This document shows, piece by piece, positions 4,237 through 31,462 of a stretch of 32,134 nt of DNA. The translations under genes and the position numbers were made by a program. Source of the DNA: Verrucomicrobiota bacterium (GTDB lineage Bacteria > Verrucomicrobiota > Kiritimatiellia > SS1-B-03-39 > UBA6053); contig JAFIGC010000052.1 in NCBI GenBank assembly GCA_020831635.1, positions 1-32,134 of the forward strand, in the 5' to 3' direction. The notes beneath the pieces are model-generated. The model had not been told where the DNA came from. It made no database searches and worked only from the letters and a program-made list of their open reading frames with translations. Positions within the stretch are counted from its first letter, which is position 1; every line of letters begins with the position of its first letter.

Positions 4237-4456
4237 CAAAAAGGAGGTTAGGAGCAAAAGGACCTACGGATGCCGAGACACGGCCTGCGGATCTTCCGAG
4301 ATGGAAGGTGATTTTCATGTGAGGCAAAAGACTGGTTTTATTGGTTGAATGGTCTGTGGTGAATGGCCTGTTGGTTTCAGAGTATCCGCAGGCAGTGTCT
4401 TGGCATCCGCAGGTTTAATTCTACAAACCCTTCCCCAATTAAGAGATGCGCCTCCA

Positions 4457-5449: not shown

Positions 5450-5858
5450 GGGACACGGATGTAAATGACCCCAACGGTTTCGCACGTCTTCCTGGAGAGT
5501 TGCATCCCGTTGGGATGCTCATTCATGTGGGGTTTGGCGGTCCAGGGGCGTTGCCCCTGGCTGACGGGTTGCATCCCGTTGGGATGCGATGCCGGAATAA
5601 AACTCCTGTTCAAAAACGAATAGGCGGTTTGTAACGGATGAATTTGACCCCAACGGGGTCCAACCCGTCAGACCGGGGCAACGCCCCGGTAATCGTCCCA
5701 CACCCCCACAACGACCCCAACGGGGTCGCACTCCTTTCTGAGGAATGGCATCCCGTTGGGTTACCTCACATGGCCATGGTCTTTCGATTGAAGTCTTCAG
5801 TGATTGAATTCCCCGTCAGGATTTTCTATCGCATACGAGAAACTCCCAACTCCTTTTC
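5450..5858. repeat. Triloop-hairpin repeat cluster 2 (two units, opposite orientations)
   Basis: This intergenic stretch holds a degenerate GACCCCAACGGTTTC (5467-5481). A reversed unit follows with stems GCATCCC-GTT-GGGATGC (5502-5518), CCAGGGGC-GTT-GCCCCTGG (5542-5560) and GCATCCC-GTT-GGGATGC (5571-5587). A forward unit follows with GACCCC-AAC-GGGGTC (5646-5660), CCGGGGC-AAC-GCCCCGG (5673-5689) and GACCCC-AAC-GGGGTC (5713-5727). A broken GCATCCCGTTGGG lies at 5748-5760. There is no gene in the interval. Confidence 0.9.
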
Positions 5859-9042: not shown

Positions 9043-9160
9043 GACCCCAACGGGGTCCAACTCGTCAGACCGGGGCAACGCCCCGGTAATTGCCCCCCCC
9101 TCAAATGCCGACCCCAACGGGGTCGTACTCCTTCCTGAGGAATGGCATCCCATTTGGATC
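9043..9160. repeat. Triloop-hairpin repeat, copy 3
   Basis: The forward unit has hairpins at 9043-9057, 9070-9086 and 9110-9124, followed by a broken reverse hairpin near 9145-9158. It lies exactly between two convergent genes, the alpha-xylosidase and the XylR-like regulator. There it could serve as the shared transcript-end structure. The trailer CTCCTTCCTGAGGAATGGCATCCC closely matches the one after copy 2. Confidence 0.9.
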
Positions 9161-11515: not shown

Positions 11516-11549
11516 ACGCCGTTTCCGAGTCTCGGAAACGGCGTTTTTT
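11516..11549 (+). terminator. Intrinsic terminator after the PEP-CTERM gene
   Basis: ACGCCGTTTCCGAG (11516-11529) pairs with CTCGGAAACGGCGT (11531-11544), leaving a very small apical loop, and a run of T residues follows directly. The stem is perfect, and the site is 26 bases after the stop codon. Confidence 0.9.
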
Positions 11550-11621
11550 GGTCTGAATTGGGGGGGGGCTCGTCATCGACATCACCGCCCGGGTCCTCTT
11601 GGACAGGGCTACGGGAGAGTG

Positions 11622-11847
11622 GCATCCCGTTGGGATGCTCAATCAGGTGGGGACGGCCATTCAGGGGCGTTGCCCCTGGCTGACGAGTGGCATCCCGTTG
11701 GGATGCGATGCCTGAATCTACTCCTGATAATCAATCCAATCGGACATTTGGAATGCATATCATTGACCCCAACGGTGTCCAACCCGTCAGACCGGGGCAA
11801 CGCCCCGGTAATTGTCCACCCCCACCAACACCGACCCCAACGGGGTC
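11622..11847. repeat. Triloop-hairpin repeat cluster 4 (left flank of the transposase gene)
   Basis: The reverse unit has stems GCATCCC-GTT-GGGATGC at 11622-11638, CAGGGGC-GTT-GCCCCTG at 11662-11678 and GCATCCC-GTT-GGGATGC at 11690-11706. A 58-bp linker follows, then a forward unit at 11765-11779 (one stem mismatch), 11792-11808 and 11833-11847. The linker and the start of the forward unit are repeated on the other side of the transposase gene at about 12557-12625. Confidence 0.9.
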
Positions 11848-11856
11848 GTACCCTTC

Positions 11857-12327
11857 CTAATCCCAAATATACCGCTCGTCATAAGGAATTTGATGTTTTT
11901 CCAAAAACGCGCGGTATTCCTCTTGAAACGTCTTTTTCCGATGATGTTCCTCTTGTTGTTCAATATAACGGATCACCTTGGAGATGTTGGATTCACTCAC
12001 CGAGAACGCACCGTATCCGGTTTGCCAGGCAAACTTCCTCAGCATGGAGTCGCTCCATTCCACCGCGTGTTCTTTGACCCAGGCGGATGAGTCTTTTTTG
12101 ACGTTCTTCACCACGTCCGCCACACTTTGGGTGCGGCCCAGCAAAAACAAACTGTGCACATGATCGGGCATGACCTTGGTGCGAATGGAGGGACAATCAA
12201 GTTGCTTGAAGATCCCCACTTGGTAAGCGACCACACGGACCCTCATCTCCTCACTCGTCAGGAAAGGATGGCGGTTTTTTGTGCTGTAGATCAAATGAAT
12301 GGCGATTTTGGATATGGATTGCGGCAT
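11857..12327 (-). CDS. IS200-like / REP-associated tyrosine transposase (RAYT)
   Basis: This 156-aa Y1-type single-strand DNA transposase has the HUH metal motif as PDHVHSLFLL (HVH at 56-58) and the catalytic tyrosine Y121 in SKVIRYIEQQEEHH. The segment FAWQTGYGAFSVSES and the C-terminal EEYRAFLEKHQIPYDERYIWD are typical of the stand-alone IS200-like proteins found with REP palindromes. No TnpB partner is present. Hairpin repeats flank it on both sides, beginning 10 bp after its stop codon and about 70 bp before its start. That is the context expected of a transposase that acts on those repeats. Both catalytic motifs look intact. Confidence 0.9.
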   Translation of the reverse strand: MPQSISKIAIHLIYSTKNRHPFLTSEEMRVRVVAYQVGIFKQLDCPSIRTKVMPDHVHSLFLLGRTQSVADVVKNVKKDSSAWVKEHAVEWSDSMLRKFAWQTGYGAFSVSESNISKVIRYIEQQEEHHRKKTFQEEYRAFLEKHQIPYDERYIWD

Positions 12328-12399
12328 GAGAACATAAAAGGGTATGTATGTATATCATTCAAGATGAAATTTGATTTTTTTCCGATTGGGGGAGGAGTG

Positions 12400-12693
12400 G
12401 CATCCCGTTGGGATGCTCGATTGGGTGGGGTTTGGCGGTCCAGGGGTGTTGCCCCTGGCTGACGGGTTTCATCCCGTTGGGATGCGATGCGGGGATCTAC
12501 CCACGACCGCAATACGGCGGAATTGACGATCCGTTCCGTAGCATCCCGTTGGCATACGATGCCTGAATCTACTCCTGATAATTCAATCGGACATTTGGAA
12601 TGCATATCATTGACCCCAACGGGGTCCAACTCGTCAGACCGGGGCAACGCCCCGGGAATCGTCCCCGCCTCAAATGCCGACCCCAACGGGGTC
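12400..12693. repeat. Triloop-hairpin repeat cluster 5 (right flank of the transposase gene)
   Basis: The reverse unit has stems at 12400-12416, 12440-12458 (one mismatch) and 12470-12484, then a broken GCATCCCGTTGGCAT at 12541. The forward unit lies at 12612-12626, 12639-12655 and 12679-12693. Bases about 12557-12625 closely duplicate 11702-11778 (CGATGCCTGAATCTACTCCT and onwards), so the transposase gene sits between long direct repeats. Confidence 0.9.
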
Positions 12694-12755
12694 GCACTCT
12701 TTTTACCCTGTGAAGAACACAAAAAAACCGGCAAATATAGCCAAGGCTCTGCAAA

Positions 12756-12806
12756 GCGGTAGCTTCGTTGCACTCGCTACCGCACTCCAAAGACGCTGCG
12801 CGTCGC
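12756..12806. repeat. Two short hairpins downstream of the macro-domain gene
   Basis: GCGGTAGC (12756-12763) pairs with GCTACCGC (12776-12783), and GACGC-TGC-GCGTC follows near 12794-12806. They lie in the 3' flank of the long minus-strand operon and may help end its transcript. A T-run on the minus strand is not obvious, so this is weak as a terminator. Confidence 0.4.
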
Positions 12807-22926: not shown

Positions 22927-24852
22927 TTAGGCCTTTTGCTTCAACCATATCTGCAGGATGGAGATGTCCACCGGATTCACGCCACTGATCCGCGAGGCCT
23001 GCCCCAGGGTTTCCGGACGGATCTTCTCCAGCTTCTCCCTGGCTTCATATCGCAAGGCGGTAATCCCGTGATAATCCATGTCTCTGGGTAAAATACATTT
23101 GTCTAGTTTTGTGGCCTTGGACGCGTGGGCTTCTTCCCGGGCGATGTACCCGGCATATTTGATTCGAATTTGCACCTGTTCTTTGATTTCGTCATGAAAC
23201 GCTTCGGATTCCAAATCTTGATCCAATTGCTCTGCAACGACTTGCGGTAGATCACCGTACTGTAGCCCCGGACGACGAAGATGTTGCGCCAGCGAGGCTC
23301 CTTCCACAAAGGTTTTCTCCAGACGTGCAATCTCGCGTTCAATGGACGCATCCAATTGCTCGATTTCCCGGAAGTGATCCTCGCCGTGGATGCCCAATTC
23401 CTTGGCCCGTTCGAACAGGCGAAAGTCCACATTGTCCTGACGCAGCAACAAACGATGCTCGGCCCTGGAGGTGAACATCCGATACGGTTCCTCGGTTCCT
23501 TTGCTGATTAAATCATCAATCAACACCCCAATGTAGGCCTCGTCCCGACCCAAGGTAAAGGCGGGCAAACCCAAGGCCTTTCGGGCCGCATTCACCCCGG
23601 CGATCAGCCCCTGCCCCGCCGCCTCTTCATAGCCGGTGGTGCCATTGATCTGACCCGCCAAAAACAAACCCTCCACCGTTTTCGTCTCCAAGGTATGAAA
23701 CAGTTGTGTCGGATCACTGTAATCGTATTCTATCGCGTATCCCGGCAAAGTAAACACCGCGTTCTCCAACCCTGGAATGGAGGCAATCATTTCCTTCTGC
23801 ACGTCCTCCGGCAAACTGTTGGACGTCCCGTTGGGGTACACGGTGTTGGCGGTGCGGCCTTCCGGCTCGATAAACACATGGTGACTGTCTTTATCCCGGA
23901 ATTTTACGATTTTATCTTCGATGGACGGACAATACCGCACCCCGGTGGCATCGATGTGTCCCCCATACATGGCGCTGCGATTAAGGTTCGATTCAATGAT
24001 TTCATGGGTTTTCGCGGTGGTATGGGTCAACCAACAGGGAATTTGCGCCGTTCCAGGGGTCCACGGGCACAAAACGTTCCCTTTTGGTGCTACACCGGGT
24101 TGTTCCACACCGGATTGTTCCACGTGGAACAATTGATGTTCCTGCCATGCCTTCTTGGCCGTACGACTGAAAAAGGGAGGCGGATCCAAGCCAGGTTGAA
24201 TTTCCATGACCGAGGTGTCGATGCTGTCCTTGAGTAATCGCGGCGGGGTTCCCGTCTTCAAGCGACCCAATCGAAAGCCCAGGGAACGGAAAGAATCCGA
24301 CAATTGATACGCGGCGGGCTCGAAAACCCTGCCACCGGGACGATTTTGGTCCCCAATGTGGATTTTCCCGCCCAAAAAGGTCCCCGAGGCAATCACCACG
24401 GTTTTTCCCTGGATTTCGCTGCCATCTTCGGTGATGACGCCTCTCAATCGACCGTTTTCCGTCCAAATTTGACCCGCCGTACACTCCAGCACCTGCAAAT
24501 AGGCCTGTTTTTCAATCACAGCCTGAATTCGCAGTGGAAAAGCATCTTTATCGTTTTGAATCCGCGTGGCCTGAACTGCCGGACCCTTGCGAAGGTTCAA
24601 AGTCCGGTACTGAATCCCTGTAAAATCTGCATTTCTGCCCAATTCACCGCCCAAAGCGTCAATTTCACAGACAATATGTGATTTGGCCATGCCGCCAATG
24701 CTCGGATTGCAGCTCATACGCCCAATCGCACGCTTATCCATGGTCAAAAGCGCCGTTTTCGCCCCCAAACGTGCGCTCGCCAGCGCGGCTTCATACCCCG
24801 CATGACCCGCGCCCACAACAATCACATCATATTTTTTCGTTTGCATGCACAT
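22927..24852 (-). CDS. mnmG: tRNA uridine-5-carboxymethylaminomethyl modification enzyme MnmG (GidA)
   Basis: This FAD-dependent cytosolic enzyme works with MnmE to install cmnm5U34 on tRNAs. At 641 aa it fits the family. The Rossmann motif is [12 protein letters not shown] (G14, G16, G19). [64 protein letters not shown] and [17 protein letters not shown] are all present. Residues about 236-268 form an extra loop before IPCWLTHT, which is shorter in E. coli. This loop includes LFHVEQ, encoded by a parS-like palindrome (24114-24133). The start is 24852, or Met3 at 24846. No strong Shine-Dalgarno is seen. mnmE lies upstream on the same strand, 295 bp away. Confidence 0.97.
24114..24133. other. 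parS-like centromere site within mnmG
   Basis: This is a perfect 20-bp palindrome, ATTGTTCCACGTGGAACAAT, whose 16-bp core (24116-24131) matches the published parS form TGTTCCACGTGGAAC seen in Pseudomonas and is related to TGTTTCACGTGAAACA of Bacillus. It encodes LFHVEQ in MnmG. A half site TGTTCCAC lies at about 24101. ParB would bind and load here to organise chromosome segregation. Confidence 0.85.
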
Positions 24853-25147
24853 CTTATAGCCGTTTCCGGGGAAAAGACAAGTTTGGAGAGGTCAGAGGGC
24901 AGAGGGCAGAGGTCAGAGGTCAGCAATGCCACCGGGAAAACACCGGCATTTACAGGTGAGAGACCATGGGTCTCACATAAGAGGTCGGAGAGCAGGGGAC
25001 AGAAAGCAGGCATCAGAGTCCATTCGTCACTCTACGCTCAAAACTCGGCACTGTTCTGGCCGATCTCCATTTTTTCCCTATCTGACCTCTACCCTCTGAC
25101 CTCTAACCTCTTCCCCCCCCTGACCTCTGACCTCTACCCTCTGACCT
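24853..25147. repeat. Inverted heptamer arrays between mnmG and mnmE
   Basis: Five tandem AGAGGKC units (24887-24921) and eight RCCTCT-type heptamers (25084-25149, with a C-rich gap at about 25112-25121) are reverse complements of one another. The intervening 160 bp include the palindrome GAGACC-ATG-GGTCTC near 24960-24975. The right array reaches the mnmE stop codon. No convincing gene lies here. Confidence 0.85.
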
Positions 25148-26572
25148 CTATTTACCTATGCAAAACCTGGAAAACACCTGGTCGAGTAAATCCTCATGAT
25201 ATTCACGTCCCGTGACCTGTCCCAAGGCTTTCAGCGCATCACGAAGGGCCGGGATGGTGAGAACCAGGGTCTCTTCCATGTCTTCGGTTTGAATTAAGCC
25301 GGCGACTTCCTGGATCTCTTGTTCCACGCTCTCCAAAACCTTTCTGTGACGCTCGGAAATGACGGCATGGGGGCGTGCGGACAGGTCAATGGACTCAGAA
25401 AGCAGTGTTTTCAGGGCTTTTTTCAGCTCTTTGACCCCTTTTTCCTCGATTAAGGCCATTTCCACCCGTTGCACCTGCGGCCATTGTTCCACGTGGAACA
25501 ATCGGGGGAGATCTGTTTTGTTGCAGATCAGGATGCTTTTTTTAGGGTCCAAGGCTTTGAACGCCTCCAAACTCTCTGAATCCGCCGGTTGACTCATATC
25601 AATGAGGTGCAAATGCAAATCGGCTCGCTCCATGTACTTTCGGGTGCGGTTGATGCCTTCCCGTTCCACATAATCCTCGGATTCCCGTAATCCGGCCGTG
25701 TCCACCAGATACAGGGGCACCCCGTCCAACACAAACTCGGCTTCGATACTGTCCCGGGTCGTGCCGGGAATATCGGAGACAATGGCGCGATCATGTCCCA
25801 GAAGGGCATTGAGCAGGGTGCTCTTTCCCACGTTCGGTTTTCCGCTCAGCACCACCATGGCCCCGTCCCGTAAAAGATGTCCTTCATTCCATGTTGCCAG
25901 CAACTCTTGGATTTGTGTTTGGATGGAAGAGATTTCCGACCGAATTTTCTCCGGCACCGATTCCGGTAACTCGTCCTCGGGAAAGTCCAGGGTGGCTTCG
26001 ATCTGAGCGGCCACCAGCATGAGGGCATCGTACACGGCGTCGAATTTTCGACTTAATCCGCCTTCCAATTGTTGTTGTGCCGCTGCTTGCGCACGGGCGG
26101 AATGGGCGCGGACGATATCCATAATCGCTTCCGCCTGAAGAAGATCGATGCGTCCATTCAGAAAAGCCCTGCGGGTAAATTCTCCCGGATCCGCAGAACG
26201 GGCTCCCGCATCCAGACAGGCCCGCAGTACCCGAGTCGCGGTGGCCACGCCACCATGACACTGCAATTCCACCACATCTTCGCAGGTATAGCTCCTTGGC
26301 GCGCGCCACATCAACAAAATCCCTTCATCGATGTTTTCATTTCCCGAACGCACATGACCATATACAAATGTATTCTCTAGGCGTTGGGAGGGCAGGGGAG
26401 GGGCGCAGTGGAAACAACGGTCGGCGATGGAAAAGGCCATGGGGCCGCTGACGCGGACGATGGACACCCCCCCTTCGCCGGGCGGGGTAATCACGGCCGC
26501 GATGGTATCTTGGCCGATAGTGTCCTGACCAATGCTATTGCGAACGGTGGCCATGTGCTGATTTCCTGACAC
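25148..26572 (-). CDS. mnmE: tRNA modification GTPase MnmE (TrmE)
   Basis: This GTPase, a partner of MnmG, uses a formyl/methylene-THF domain (about 1-125) and a G domain within the helical domain. The motifs are GKPNVGKS (244-251), IPGTTRDS (268-275), DTAGLRES (291-298), NKTD (351-354) and the C-terminal FCIGK with the catalytic Cys472. The N-terminus carries a tandem IGQDT-IGQDT. The start is Met1 or Met7 (26554); the latter is closer to the conserved part. LFHVEQ in the G domain comes from a second parS-like palindrome (25483-25502). It lies seven bases downstream of hpt on the same strand, suggesting cotranscription. Confidence 0.97.
   Translation of the reverse strand: MSGNQHMATVRNSIGQDTIGQDTIAAVITPPGEGGVSIVRVSGPMAFSIADRCFHCAPPLPSQRLENTFVYGHVRSGNENIDEGILLMWRAPRSYTCEDVVELQCHGGVATATRVLRACLDAGARSADPGEFTRRAFLNGRIDLLQAEAIMDIVRAHSARAQAAAQQQLEGGLSRKFDAVYDALMLVAAQIEATLDFPEDELPESVPEKIRSEISSIQTQIQELLATWNEGHLLRDGAMVVLSGKPNVGKSTLLNALLGHDRAIVSDIPGTTRDSIEAEFVLDGVPLYLVDTAGLRESEDYVEREGINRTRKYMERADLHLHLIDMSQPADSESLEAFKALDPKKSILICNKTDLPRLFHVEQWPQVQRVEMALIEEKGVKELKKALKTLLSESIDLSARPHAVISERHRKVLESVEQEIQEVAGLIQTEDMEETLVLTIPALRDALKALGQVTGREYHEDLLDQVFSRFCIGK
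25483..25502. other. parS-like centromere site within mnmE
   Basis: This perfect 20-bp palindrome is identical to that at 24114-24133 and lies about 1.37 kb away in the neighbouring gene. In MnmE it again encodes LFHVEQ. Two identical copies are very unlikely by chance and strongly support a ParB-binding function. Confidence 0.87.
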
Positions 26573-31118: not shown

Positions 31119-31173
31119 CGCTTACATGCTCTTTCTCCCGCTTTGTCCAGATTTTTATCAGAACGGTCATCAG

Positions 31174-31325
31174 CCAGAATGATGGGAAATCAGGACAGAA
31201 TGATAAGAGGACAGAATGATGGGGATTGGGGATGGGACAGAATGATGAGGTGACAGAATGATGGGGAAGAGAAGGGAAGAGGTAAAGAAGGAGAGGGGAC
31301 AGAATGATGAGGTGACAAAATGATG
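31174..31325. repeat. GACAGAATGATG direct-repeat array
   Basis: Copies of GACAGAATGATR begin at 31194, 31210, 31236, 31252 and 31298, with variants at 31174 (CCAGAATGATG) and 31314 (GACAAAATGATG). They are separated by G-rich spacers of unequal length, often AGG or GGG. The array is in the 344-bp gap between rarA (minus) and the STN-domain gene (plus). There is no leader or cas gene, and spacing is irregular, so it is not CRISPR. Confidence 0.85.
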
Positions 31326-31462
31326 GGGTTCAGGGCGTTAGGGTTGAGAATTTGTTTGTCAGAGAACATCTCCTTGATATGCATCTCCTTGAAAACCGGG
31401 GTGAGCCTAGCCACGAAAAGGTAAGCCCCCCAAACCTAACCCAAACCCCAACACGGTATCCC

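Follow-up and report, generated by a model that had tools for sequence, protein, structure and literature searches.

Introduction

HUH-Y1 enzymes bind hairpins in single-stranded DNA and nick through a 5′-phosphotyrosine. The TnpA-REP enzymes of Escherichia coli and Stenotrophomonas maltophilia cut REPs at C|T with GTAG as the guide; the S. maltophilia REP has an 8-bp perfect stem and a 3-nt loop, and reversal of the loop severely lowers activity (PMC8266576). REPs without the enzyme are also known in E. coli (PMC3733652). TnpA-Y1 subclass 1.2 was described by its motifs (DH[IV]H, WQ and Y---Q--HH), a length of about 148 amino acids and a conserved C-terminal domain (Quentin et al. 2018, PMC6006769). 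It was reported mostly from Cyanobacteria and Bacteroidetes, without IS features, and was tabulated as REP 'no' and generally without terminal secondary structures (PMC6006769).

Here we analyzed a window of 32,134 nucleotides (the whole stretch of DNA considered), which is contig C121 in the 6.0-Mb draft genome of a Verrucomicrobiota bacterium (308 contigs, 96.5% complete). We consider it probable that the window holds a REPtron-like locus belonging to a lineage not assigned before. Its nuclease, a Y1 enzyme of subclass 1.2, is chromosomal and low in copy number and would come with a two-hairpin REP-like family of its own, which the enzyme or a recent ancestor would have recognized and spread.

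Motifs of the transposase point to subclass 1.2

The initial annotation had named a RAYT transposase gene. The gene indeed encodes a Y1 (HUH) transposase of 156 amino acids (Pfam Y1_Tnp, E = 3e-24), but not a RAYT of class 2, as the catalytic motif Y---NP of that class is absent from the window protein and Y---Q--HH is found instead. The predicted catalytic residues are H56/H58 of the HUH motif, the catalytic Y121, Q125 and H128/H129. All of these, together with WQ at 101–102, are unchanged across relatives in alignments of 28 and 43 sequences. DHVH lies at 55–58, the Y motif reads YIEQQEEHH and fits Y---Q--HH, and the C-terminal tail (TFQEEYR..DERY.WD) is kept in relatives. On the strength of this motif set and the conserved tail, we assign the enzyme to TnpA-Y1 subclass 1.2 and not to the canonical RAYTs. 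Its size (about 150 amino acids in the subclass), specific C-terminal domain, low copy number, diverged paralogues and presence in Bacteroidota also agree with the published description.

Among NCBIfam models, the IS200 model scored above its cut-off, whereas REP_Tyr_transpos reached 36.6 bits against a cut-off of 80. The AlphaFold model of the protein (mean pLDDT 91) matches the hairpin-bound TnpA of ISDra2 and IS608; its match to the E. coli RAYT in complex with a REP (4er8) is weaker. In the genome collections searched, the closest named relative belongs to a 'PVC group bacterium' (locus L054, 74% protein identity), followed by assemblies of Verrucomicrobia and Kiritimatiellae. Within the literature collection searched, no later work on subclass 1.2 with repeats was found, and the best matches there for the repeat core sequences included none on bacterial repeats.

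The repeat is a composite of two inverse halves

The transposase had been described as bracketed by triloop hairpins of a family that recurs elsewhere in the window, and both observations were confirmed. Perfect stems of at least 6 bp with the loop GTT, or AAC depending on the strand, lie on both sides of the gene, and the same family was found as whole or half composites at three further places (Table 1). A GTT/AAC loop is carried by 22 of the 44 triloop hairpins (stem at least 6 bp) in the window, and any other loop at most three times. The location given for the repeat stood; its description as single hairpins did not, since the unit is a composite in which H1-H2-H1 faces its inverse.

One half reads, in order, H1, about 24 nt, H2, CTGACGRGTKG and H1. 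H1 is GCATCCC-GTT-GGGATGC or GACCCC-GTT-GGGGTC, and H2 is CCAGGGGC-GTT-GCCCCTGG or ACCGGGGC-GTT-GCCCCGGT; the stems measure 7 bp in H1 and 8 bp in H2, both with a triloop. The two halves face each other, with GTT loops preceding AAC loops on one strand, and form a palindromic element of ~230 bp. As single-stranded DNA, the 251-nt composite at 5490–5740 folds with −72.9 kcal/mol (z = −7.9). Within it, 5502–5728 consists of two inverse halves whose 39-nt arms are 90% complementary. As in REPINs and BIMEs, two inverse REPs thus make one palindromic, mobile-looking unit; unlike these, each half here has three hairpins. The stretch at 5467–5482 and three others (11765–11779, 12541–12557 and 9145–9160) are degenerate copies of H1. 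An Rfam scan of the window matched nothing but a tRNA.

Table 1 Features of the transposase locus and its repeats in the window. Model units are covariance-model matches.
Feature	Position	Strand	Details
Y1 (HUH, single-tyrosine) transposase-like gene	11857–12327	−	Pfam, motifs, relatives, AlphaFold model
Left flanking composite	11616–11850	.	H1 11622–11638, H2 11661–11679, CT 11680–11681, H1 11690–11706; inverse half: degenerate H1 11765–11779, H2 11791–11809 with AG before it (CT on the opposite strand), H1 11832–11848; model units 11661–11704 (+), 11766–11809 (−)
Right flanking composite	12394–12696	.	H1 12400–12416, H2 12440–12458, CT 12459–12460, H1 12470–12484, degenerate H1 about 12541–12557; inverse half: H1 12612–12626, H2 12639–12655, H1 12678–12694; model units 12440–12483 (+), 12613–12656 (−)
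Perfect GTT/AAC hairpins left of gene	11622–11638, 11662–11678, 11690–11706, 11791–11809, 11832–11848		
Perfect GTT/AAC hairpins right of gene	12400–12416, 12470–12484, 12612–12626, 12639–12655, 12678–12694		
Half composite, contig start	2–81	−	H1 2–16, H2 28–46, H1 65–81; model unit 3–46 (−)
Gene-free full composite	5464–5728	.	H1 5502–5518, H2 5542–5560, H1 5571–5587, H1 5646–5660, H2 5672–5690, H1 5712–5728; degenerate H1 ~5467–5482; model units 5542–5585 (+), 5647–5690 (−)
Half composite	9043–9125	−	H1 9043–9057, H2 9069–9087, H1 9109–9125; model unit 9044–9087 (−); 51 bp on the 3′ side of a gene for an AraC-type regulator; degenerate H1 next at about 9145–9160

Repeats outnumber the gene, and diverged paralogues appear to have different repeats

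Copy numbers in the genome were estimated from pattern counts and from a blind 13% sample (807 kb). The full-length composite has ~30 matches genome-wide, at 75–92% identity to a reference copy, and the pattern CCCGTTGGG occurs 317 times compared with 74 for the reversed pattern. In the blind sample, the two commonest triloop hairpin cores are both H1 types of the GTT family (17 and 15 copies), and an independent two-hairpin model gave 25 matches at E ≤ 0.05 within 752 kb of it. Full-length copies have outer ends in common, with GAGTGS on both sides just outside H1; in this genome, the outer H1 is preceded by GAGTGG. REP-like repeats with copies across the genome thus lie on both sides of the window gene, as is typical of RAYT genes. 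In the count of repeats against transposase copies, proposed in the initial annotation, hairpin units were far more numerous than genes. Several copies (L012, L017 and L020) stop at one common point, ACCCGAATGGCA..AACTTAAGGGT, and L020 contains an inserted segment of which the two ends can be seen, as though the repeat had been targeted by another element.

Six paralogues in the genome are 38–45% identical to the window protein, and each gene sits among a different hairpin-rich repeat, as judged by eye. The window gene on C121 is accompanied by the GTT loop; the repeats near the other genes are GCATCCT-GAA-AGGATGC on C230, GCCCC-TCC-GGGGC on C147, GACCCC-GGA/GGCA-GGGGTC on C47, GGCCC-TTC/AAC-GGGCC on C166 and an imperfect GGACC-TTC-GGCCC type on C290. 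By these sequences, the repeat seems to differ from one of the six diverged paralogues to the next. Only the C121 and C230 families were seen as abundant in the blind sample; those of the other four paralogues were not. A further hairpin family, GTCGCGTAGCGAC, has 9 copies on 5 contigs of the own-genome sample (L134–L193); it flanks a subclass 1.2 gene (L051) in the congener G003 and none of the six own-genome paralogues. This repeat may have outlived or outrun its enzyme.

These data bear on whether the locus is an ordinary IS200-type insertion sequence, with the flanking hairpins as its ends and the dispersed copies as remnants or MITEs of an element that moves as a whole. The superfamily, the fold and the catalytic Y---Q are those of ISDra2 and IS608 TnpA (IS200/IS605, subclass 1.1), which recognize hairpins at the element ends in solved complexes, and the IS200 model score points the same way. 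Against this, near-identical copies of the whole element, as expected of IS200, were not found in the genome, where the top paralogue identity is 45%. Each flank holds a whole gene-free composite instead of one end, the flanks are inverted, unlike the same-strand ends of IS200, and gene-free repeats outnumber the gene. Even distant matches are rare, with 9 among 72,556 plasmids and 2 among 50,697 phages, and IS features are absent from subclass 1.2 (PMC6006769). We regard an IS200-type element as very improbable.

Relatives are flanked by a conserved two-hairpin unit

Relatives were sought in genome contigs with a six-sequence alignment, and 80 loci from a species-genome collection were compared, in Verrucomicrobiota, Kiritimatiellota, Lentisphaerae, Planctomycetota and scattered other phyla. 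Across these loci, the density of triloop hairpins with stems of 7 bp or more falls from 4.98 per kb in the 300 bp next to the gene to 1.28 at 300–600 bp and 0.14–0.24 at 1.5–4 kb, so that the value near the gene is ~20–35 times that at 1.5–4 kb. Loops of 2, 4, 6, 7 or 8 nt showed little or no enrichment near the gene in the same loci; an apparent enrichment of 5-nt loops was rejected because long-stem triloop hairpins had been counted twice. In 77 of the 80 loci, the gene has one or more triloop hairpins (stems of 6 bp or longer) no more than 700 bp away.

After hairpins were oriented by their K-rich loop, a fixed spacing emerged, with 17–18 nt from H2 to the start of the H1 loop in ~89 of 154 strand-hits, compared with 16 of 7,700 shuffled tails. 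CT is found on exactly one side of H2, directly after it, in 152 of the 154 (98.7%). The linker of this H2-CT-H1 unit is 10–11 nt long and often RTRR-like. RTRR stands at a fixed linker position in 41 of 74 units (7.6 expected); GT[AG]G is mildly enriched (16 of 74, 10.1 expected) and GTAG alone occurs 13 times against 4.4 expected. Because the units were selected for intact stems, base-pair covariation does not count as independent evidence. Units upstream and downstream of the gene are opposite in direction, with the halves pointing outward and H2 proximal, usually 45–60 bp away.

Such a conserved position at both gene ends is also what one would expect if the flanking units were operator or attenuator sites for this gene only, acting through enzyme binding or as RNA hairpins and dispersed by recombination instead of by the enzyme. 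Mirror-image units, however, lie downstream of the gene as well, and others are hundreds of kilobases away. A T-tract is mostly missing after the repeat hairpins, and a terminator-like score was obtained for 1 of the 10 flanking hairpins, that at 12678–12694 only. The operator reading is, in our judgment, very improbable.

The two-hairpin unit of a REPtron-like locus was further examined with a covariance model (R1) trained on 56 units that came from 33 loci, the window excluded. In the window, R1 found 8 full-length units, all inside the four repeat regions and none elsewhere in the 32 kb. Units at E ≤ 0.01 were present in 46 of the 47 loci unused for building, and by our count ~104 of 117 matches in these held-out loci fall within 700 bp of the gene.

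In Bacteroidota, a subclass 1.2 relative was found in 109 of 247 sampled genomes (44%). Among 30 loci, 14 have an R1 match at E ≤ 0.01, and triloop hairpins reach 2.21 per kb up to 300 bp from the gene, compared with 0.15–0.31 per kb beyond 600 bp. The layout H2 - (C/T)T - linker - H1 was seen by eye in these loci and also in a Bacteroidota plasmid copy (L194). Two cyanobacterial plasmid matches (L196 and L197) lack Y---Q--HH and were rejected as members of subclass 1.2.

The published account of subclass 1.2, without REPs or IS-type flanking hairpins and mostly in Cyanobacteria and Bacteroidetes, thus differs from what we see: nearly all of the members tested have REP-like units at their flanks, and many of these members come from Verrucomicrobiota, Kiritimatiellota and Planctomycetota. 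Since the missing REP was a negative observation and not a defining character, the membership of the window enzyme stands, and, judged by these flanking sequences, the entry 'no' for REP should be revised, if only for the tested clade.

Repeats and transposase co-occur across genomes

The initial annotation had reasoned that a REP/RAYT relationship should show as co-occurrence in relatives, and that genomes with the repeat or the transposase alone would speak against it. The transposase is present in 57 of 241 genomes of the phylum (24%). These carry 7.4 H2 consensus sites on average, compared with 0.80 in the 184 genomes without it (Mann-Whitney p = 7e-8), and the reversed-pattern controls gave 0.32 and 0.41, respectively. 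At least 8 H2 sites were found in 15/57 genomes with the transposase and 4/184 without. The outcome of this check was mixed: exceptions exist both ways, yet the overall association is strong. Repeats without a detected gene were found in G221, G199, G165, G235 and G002, several of the five being incomplete drafts; in G002, of the same genus and 88% complete, the window-type element is present and the gene was not detected. Conversely, strict H2 sites are missing from 21 of the 57 transposase carriers, and a few of them are ordinary IS200 carriers admitted by the loose cut-off, for example G110. As REPs without the enzyme are established in E. coli (PMC3733652), the repeat-only genomes do not amount to a refutation.

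Loci whose proteins are more alike also have more similar flanking hairpins (Mantel r = 0.40, 0/2,000 permutations). For pairs below 60% identity r is 0.23 (0/2,000), and below 50% the correlation fades (r = 0.07, 120/2,000). In the loci compared, hairpin type follows the protein tree, although part of the correlation could come from shared descent alone.

The same data weigh on the idea that the hairpins are host elements, such as mRNA 3′-end stabilizers or supercoiling/gyrase sites, and that the transposase merely inserted in or beside them, like REP-targeting insertion sequences. With a rough ORF caller, 34 of 63 GTT-family hairpins in the sample and window lie outside ORFs, compared with 11% non-coding sequence, and 0 of the 22 with callable neighbors lie between divergent genes. 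Some copies also appear to carry insertions of other elements. All this would suit host elements, which would leave unexplained that inverted units stand 45–60 bp off both gene sides in nearly all relatives across phyla, that hairpin type tracks protein type, and that genomes without the gene mostly lack the repeat. We therefore think a host-element origin very improbable; the hairpins may still have secondary host roles.

A probable REPtron-like locus with a distinct enzyme and a predicted substrate

Taken as a REPtron-like locus, the window resembles the REPtrons of E. coli, Stenotrophomonas and Pseudomonas (RAYT class 2) in its inverted, dispersed palindromes around the gene, one repeat family per enzyme, the HUH-Y fold, CT beside the hairpin and, less clearly, a GT[AG]G-like purine-rich foot in some units. 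The S. maltophilia REP, too, combines a perfect stem with a 3-nt loop (PMC8266576). It differs in the protein motif (Y---Q--HH here, Y---NP there) and in the repeat, which is a two-hairpin H2-CT-linker-H1 unit with a degenerate foot in place of one GTAG-tagged hairpin. The REP/RAYT relationship proposed at the outset is thus supported in part: the dispersed repeats, the flanking pair, the geometry in relatives, the co-occurrence and the hairpin–protein correlation speak for it, but the enzyme lies outside the known RAYT class. The system is REP/RAYT-like in organization and probably also in mechanism.

That the repeats are acted on as single strands, as the initial annotation proposed, we infer from the protein family. 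An enzyme dimer would use the triloops to bind hairpins on a single strand that has folded on itself (the lagging-strand template, for instance), and its nick would fall at the invariant C|T directly 3′ to H2. As guide it may use the linker before H1, which is purine-rich and resembles RTRR or GT[AG]G. The hairpin composite would then be copied or moved as single-stranded DNA, while the gene of the enzyme would stay put, as suggested by the presence of diverged paralogues only and the near absence from plasmids and phages.

A clean empty site, junction or target duplication was not found at the window or at two further element loci compared with congeners. At the orthologous AraC/PEP-CTERM locus of the congener G003, the flanking REPtron and the 9043–9125 repeat are both absent. 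Synteny breaks nearby, so this absence indicates turnover and not insertion.

For subclass 1.2, the cognate hairpin unit is a likely substrate, with a predicted cleavage site at C|T after H2. The spread of REP-type repeats would no longer be confined to one branch of the Y1 family, and an abundant intergenic hairpin class in genomes of Verrucomicrobiota, Planctomycetota and Bacteroidota would be accounted for. We lean slightly towards a wider reading, in which subclass 1.2 as a whole is a separate REP-dispersing lineage, with the substrate H2-CT-guide-H1 conserved across phyla and a hairpin code of its own for each enzyme. If this is true, REP-type repeats have arisen alongside Y1 enzymes of class 1 as well as class 2. 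For how such enzymes read hairpin loops, natural material is offered by genomes that combine several diverged enzymes with several hairpin families.

Other repeats in the window

Hairpins of the form TTCCGA-NNN-TCGGAA followed by T-runs lie at gene ends, at 11516–11544 and genome-wide. They look like standard terminators and, though also triloop hairpins, are unrelated to the REP family. A short repeat at 12752–12806 (the GGTAGCTTCGTTGCACTCGCTACC region) adjoins the right composite and has many copies in G003 and some in the congeners G001 and G002. The segment at 1791–2041 is a different dispersed repeat of ~250 bp with inverted arms at 1873–1920 and 1946–1993; ~15 copies at 83–99% identity occur in the genome, and it is also found in G001 and G002. 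Another repeat, at 4246–4418 (inverted arms 4262–4299 and 4377–4414), has ~8 genome copies at 80–91% identity. Between these two, 2059–2395 contains a perfect 35-nt inverted repeat (2059–2093 and 2361–2395); its inner segment 2092–2362 is ~70–74% conserved in several family members and has no Rfam match. Imperfect direct repeats of short units occupy intergenic sequence at 31159–31328 and 24887–25150 (ACAGAATGATGRGG; TCTGACCTCTA and its inverse). Finally, the perfect palindrome TGTTCCACGTGGAACA occurs at 24116–24131 and 25485–25500, inside ORFs resembling mnmG and mnmE; with up to one mismatch allowed, the 6-Mb assembly contains no further copy. It resembles a parS centromere site, which would put the contig near the replication origin.
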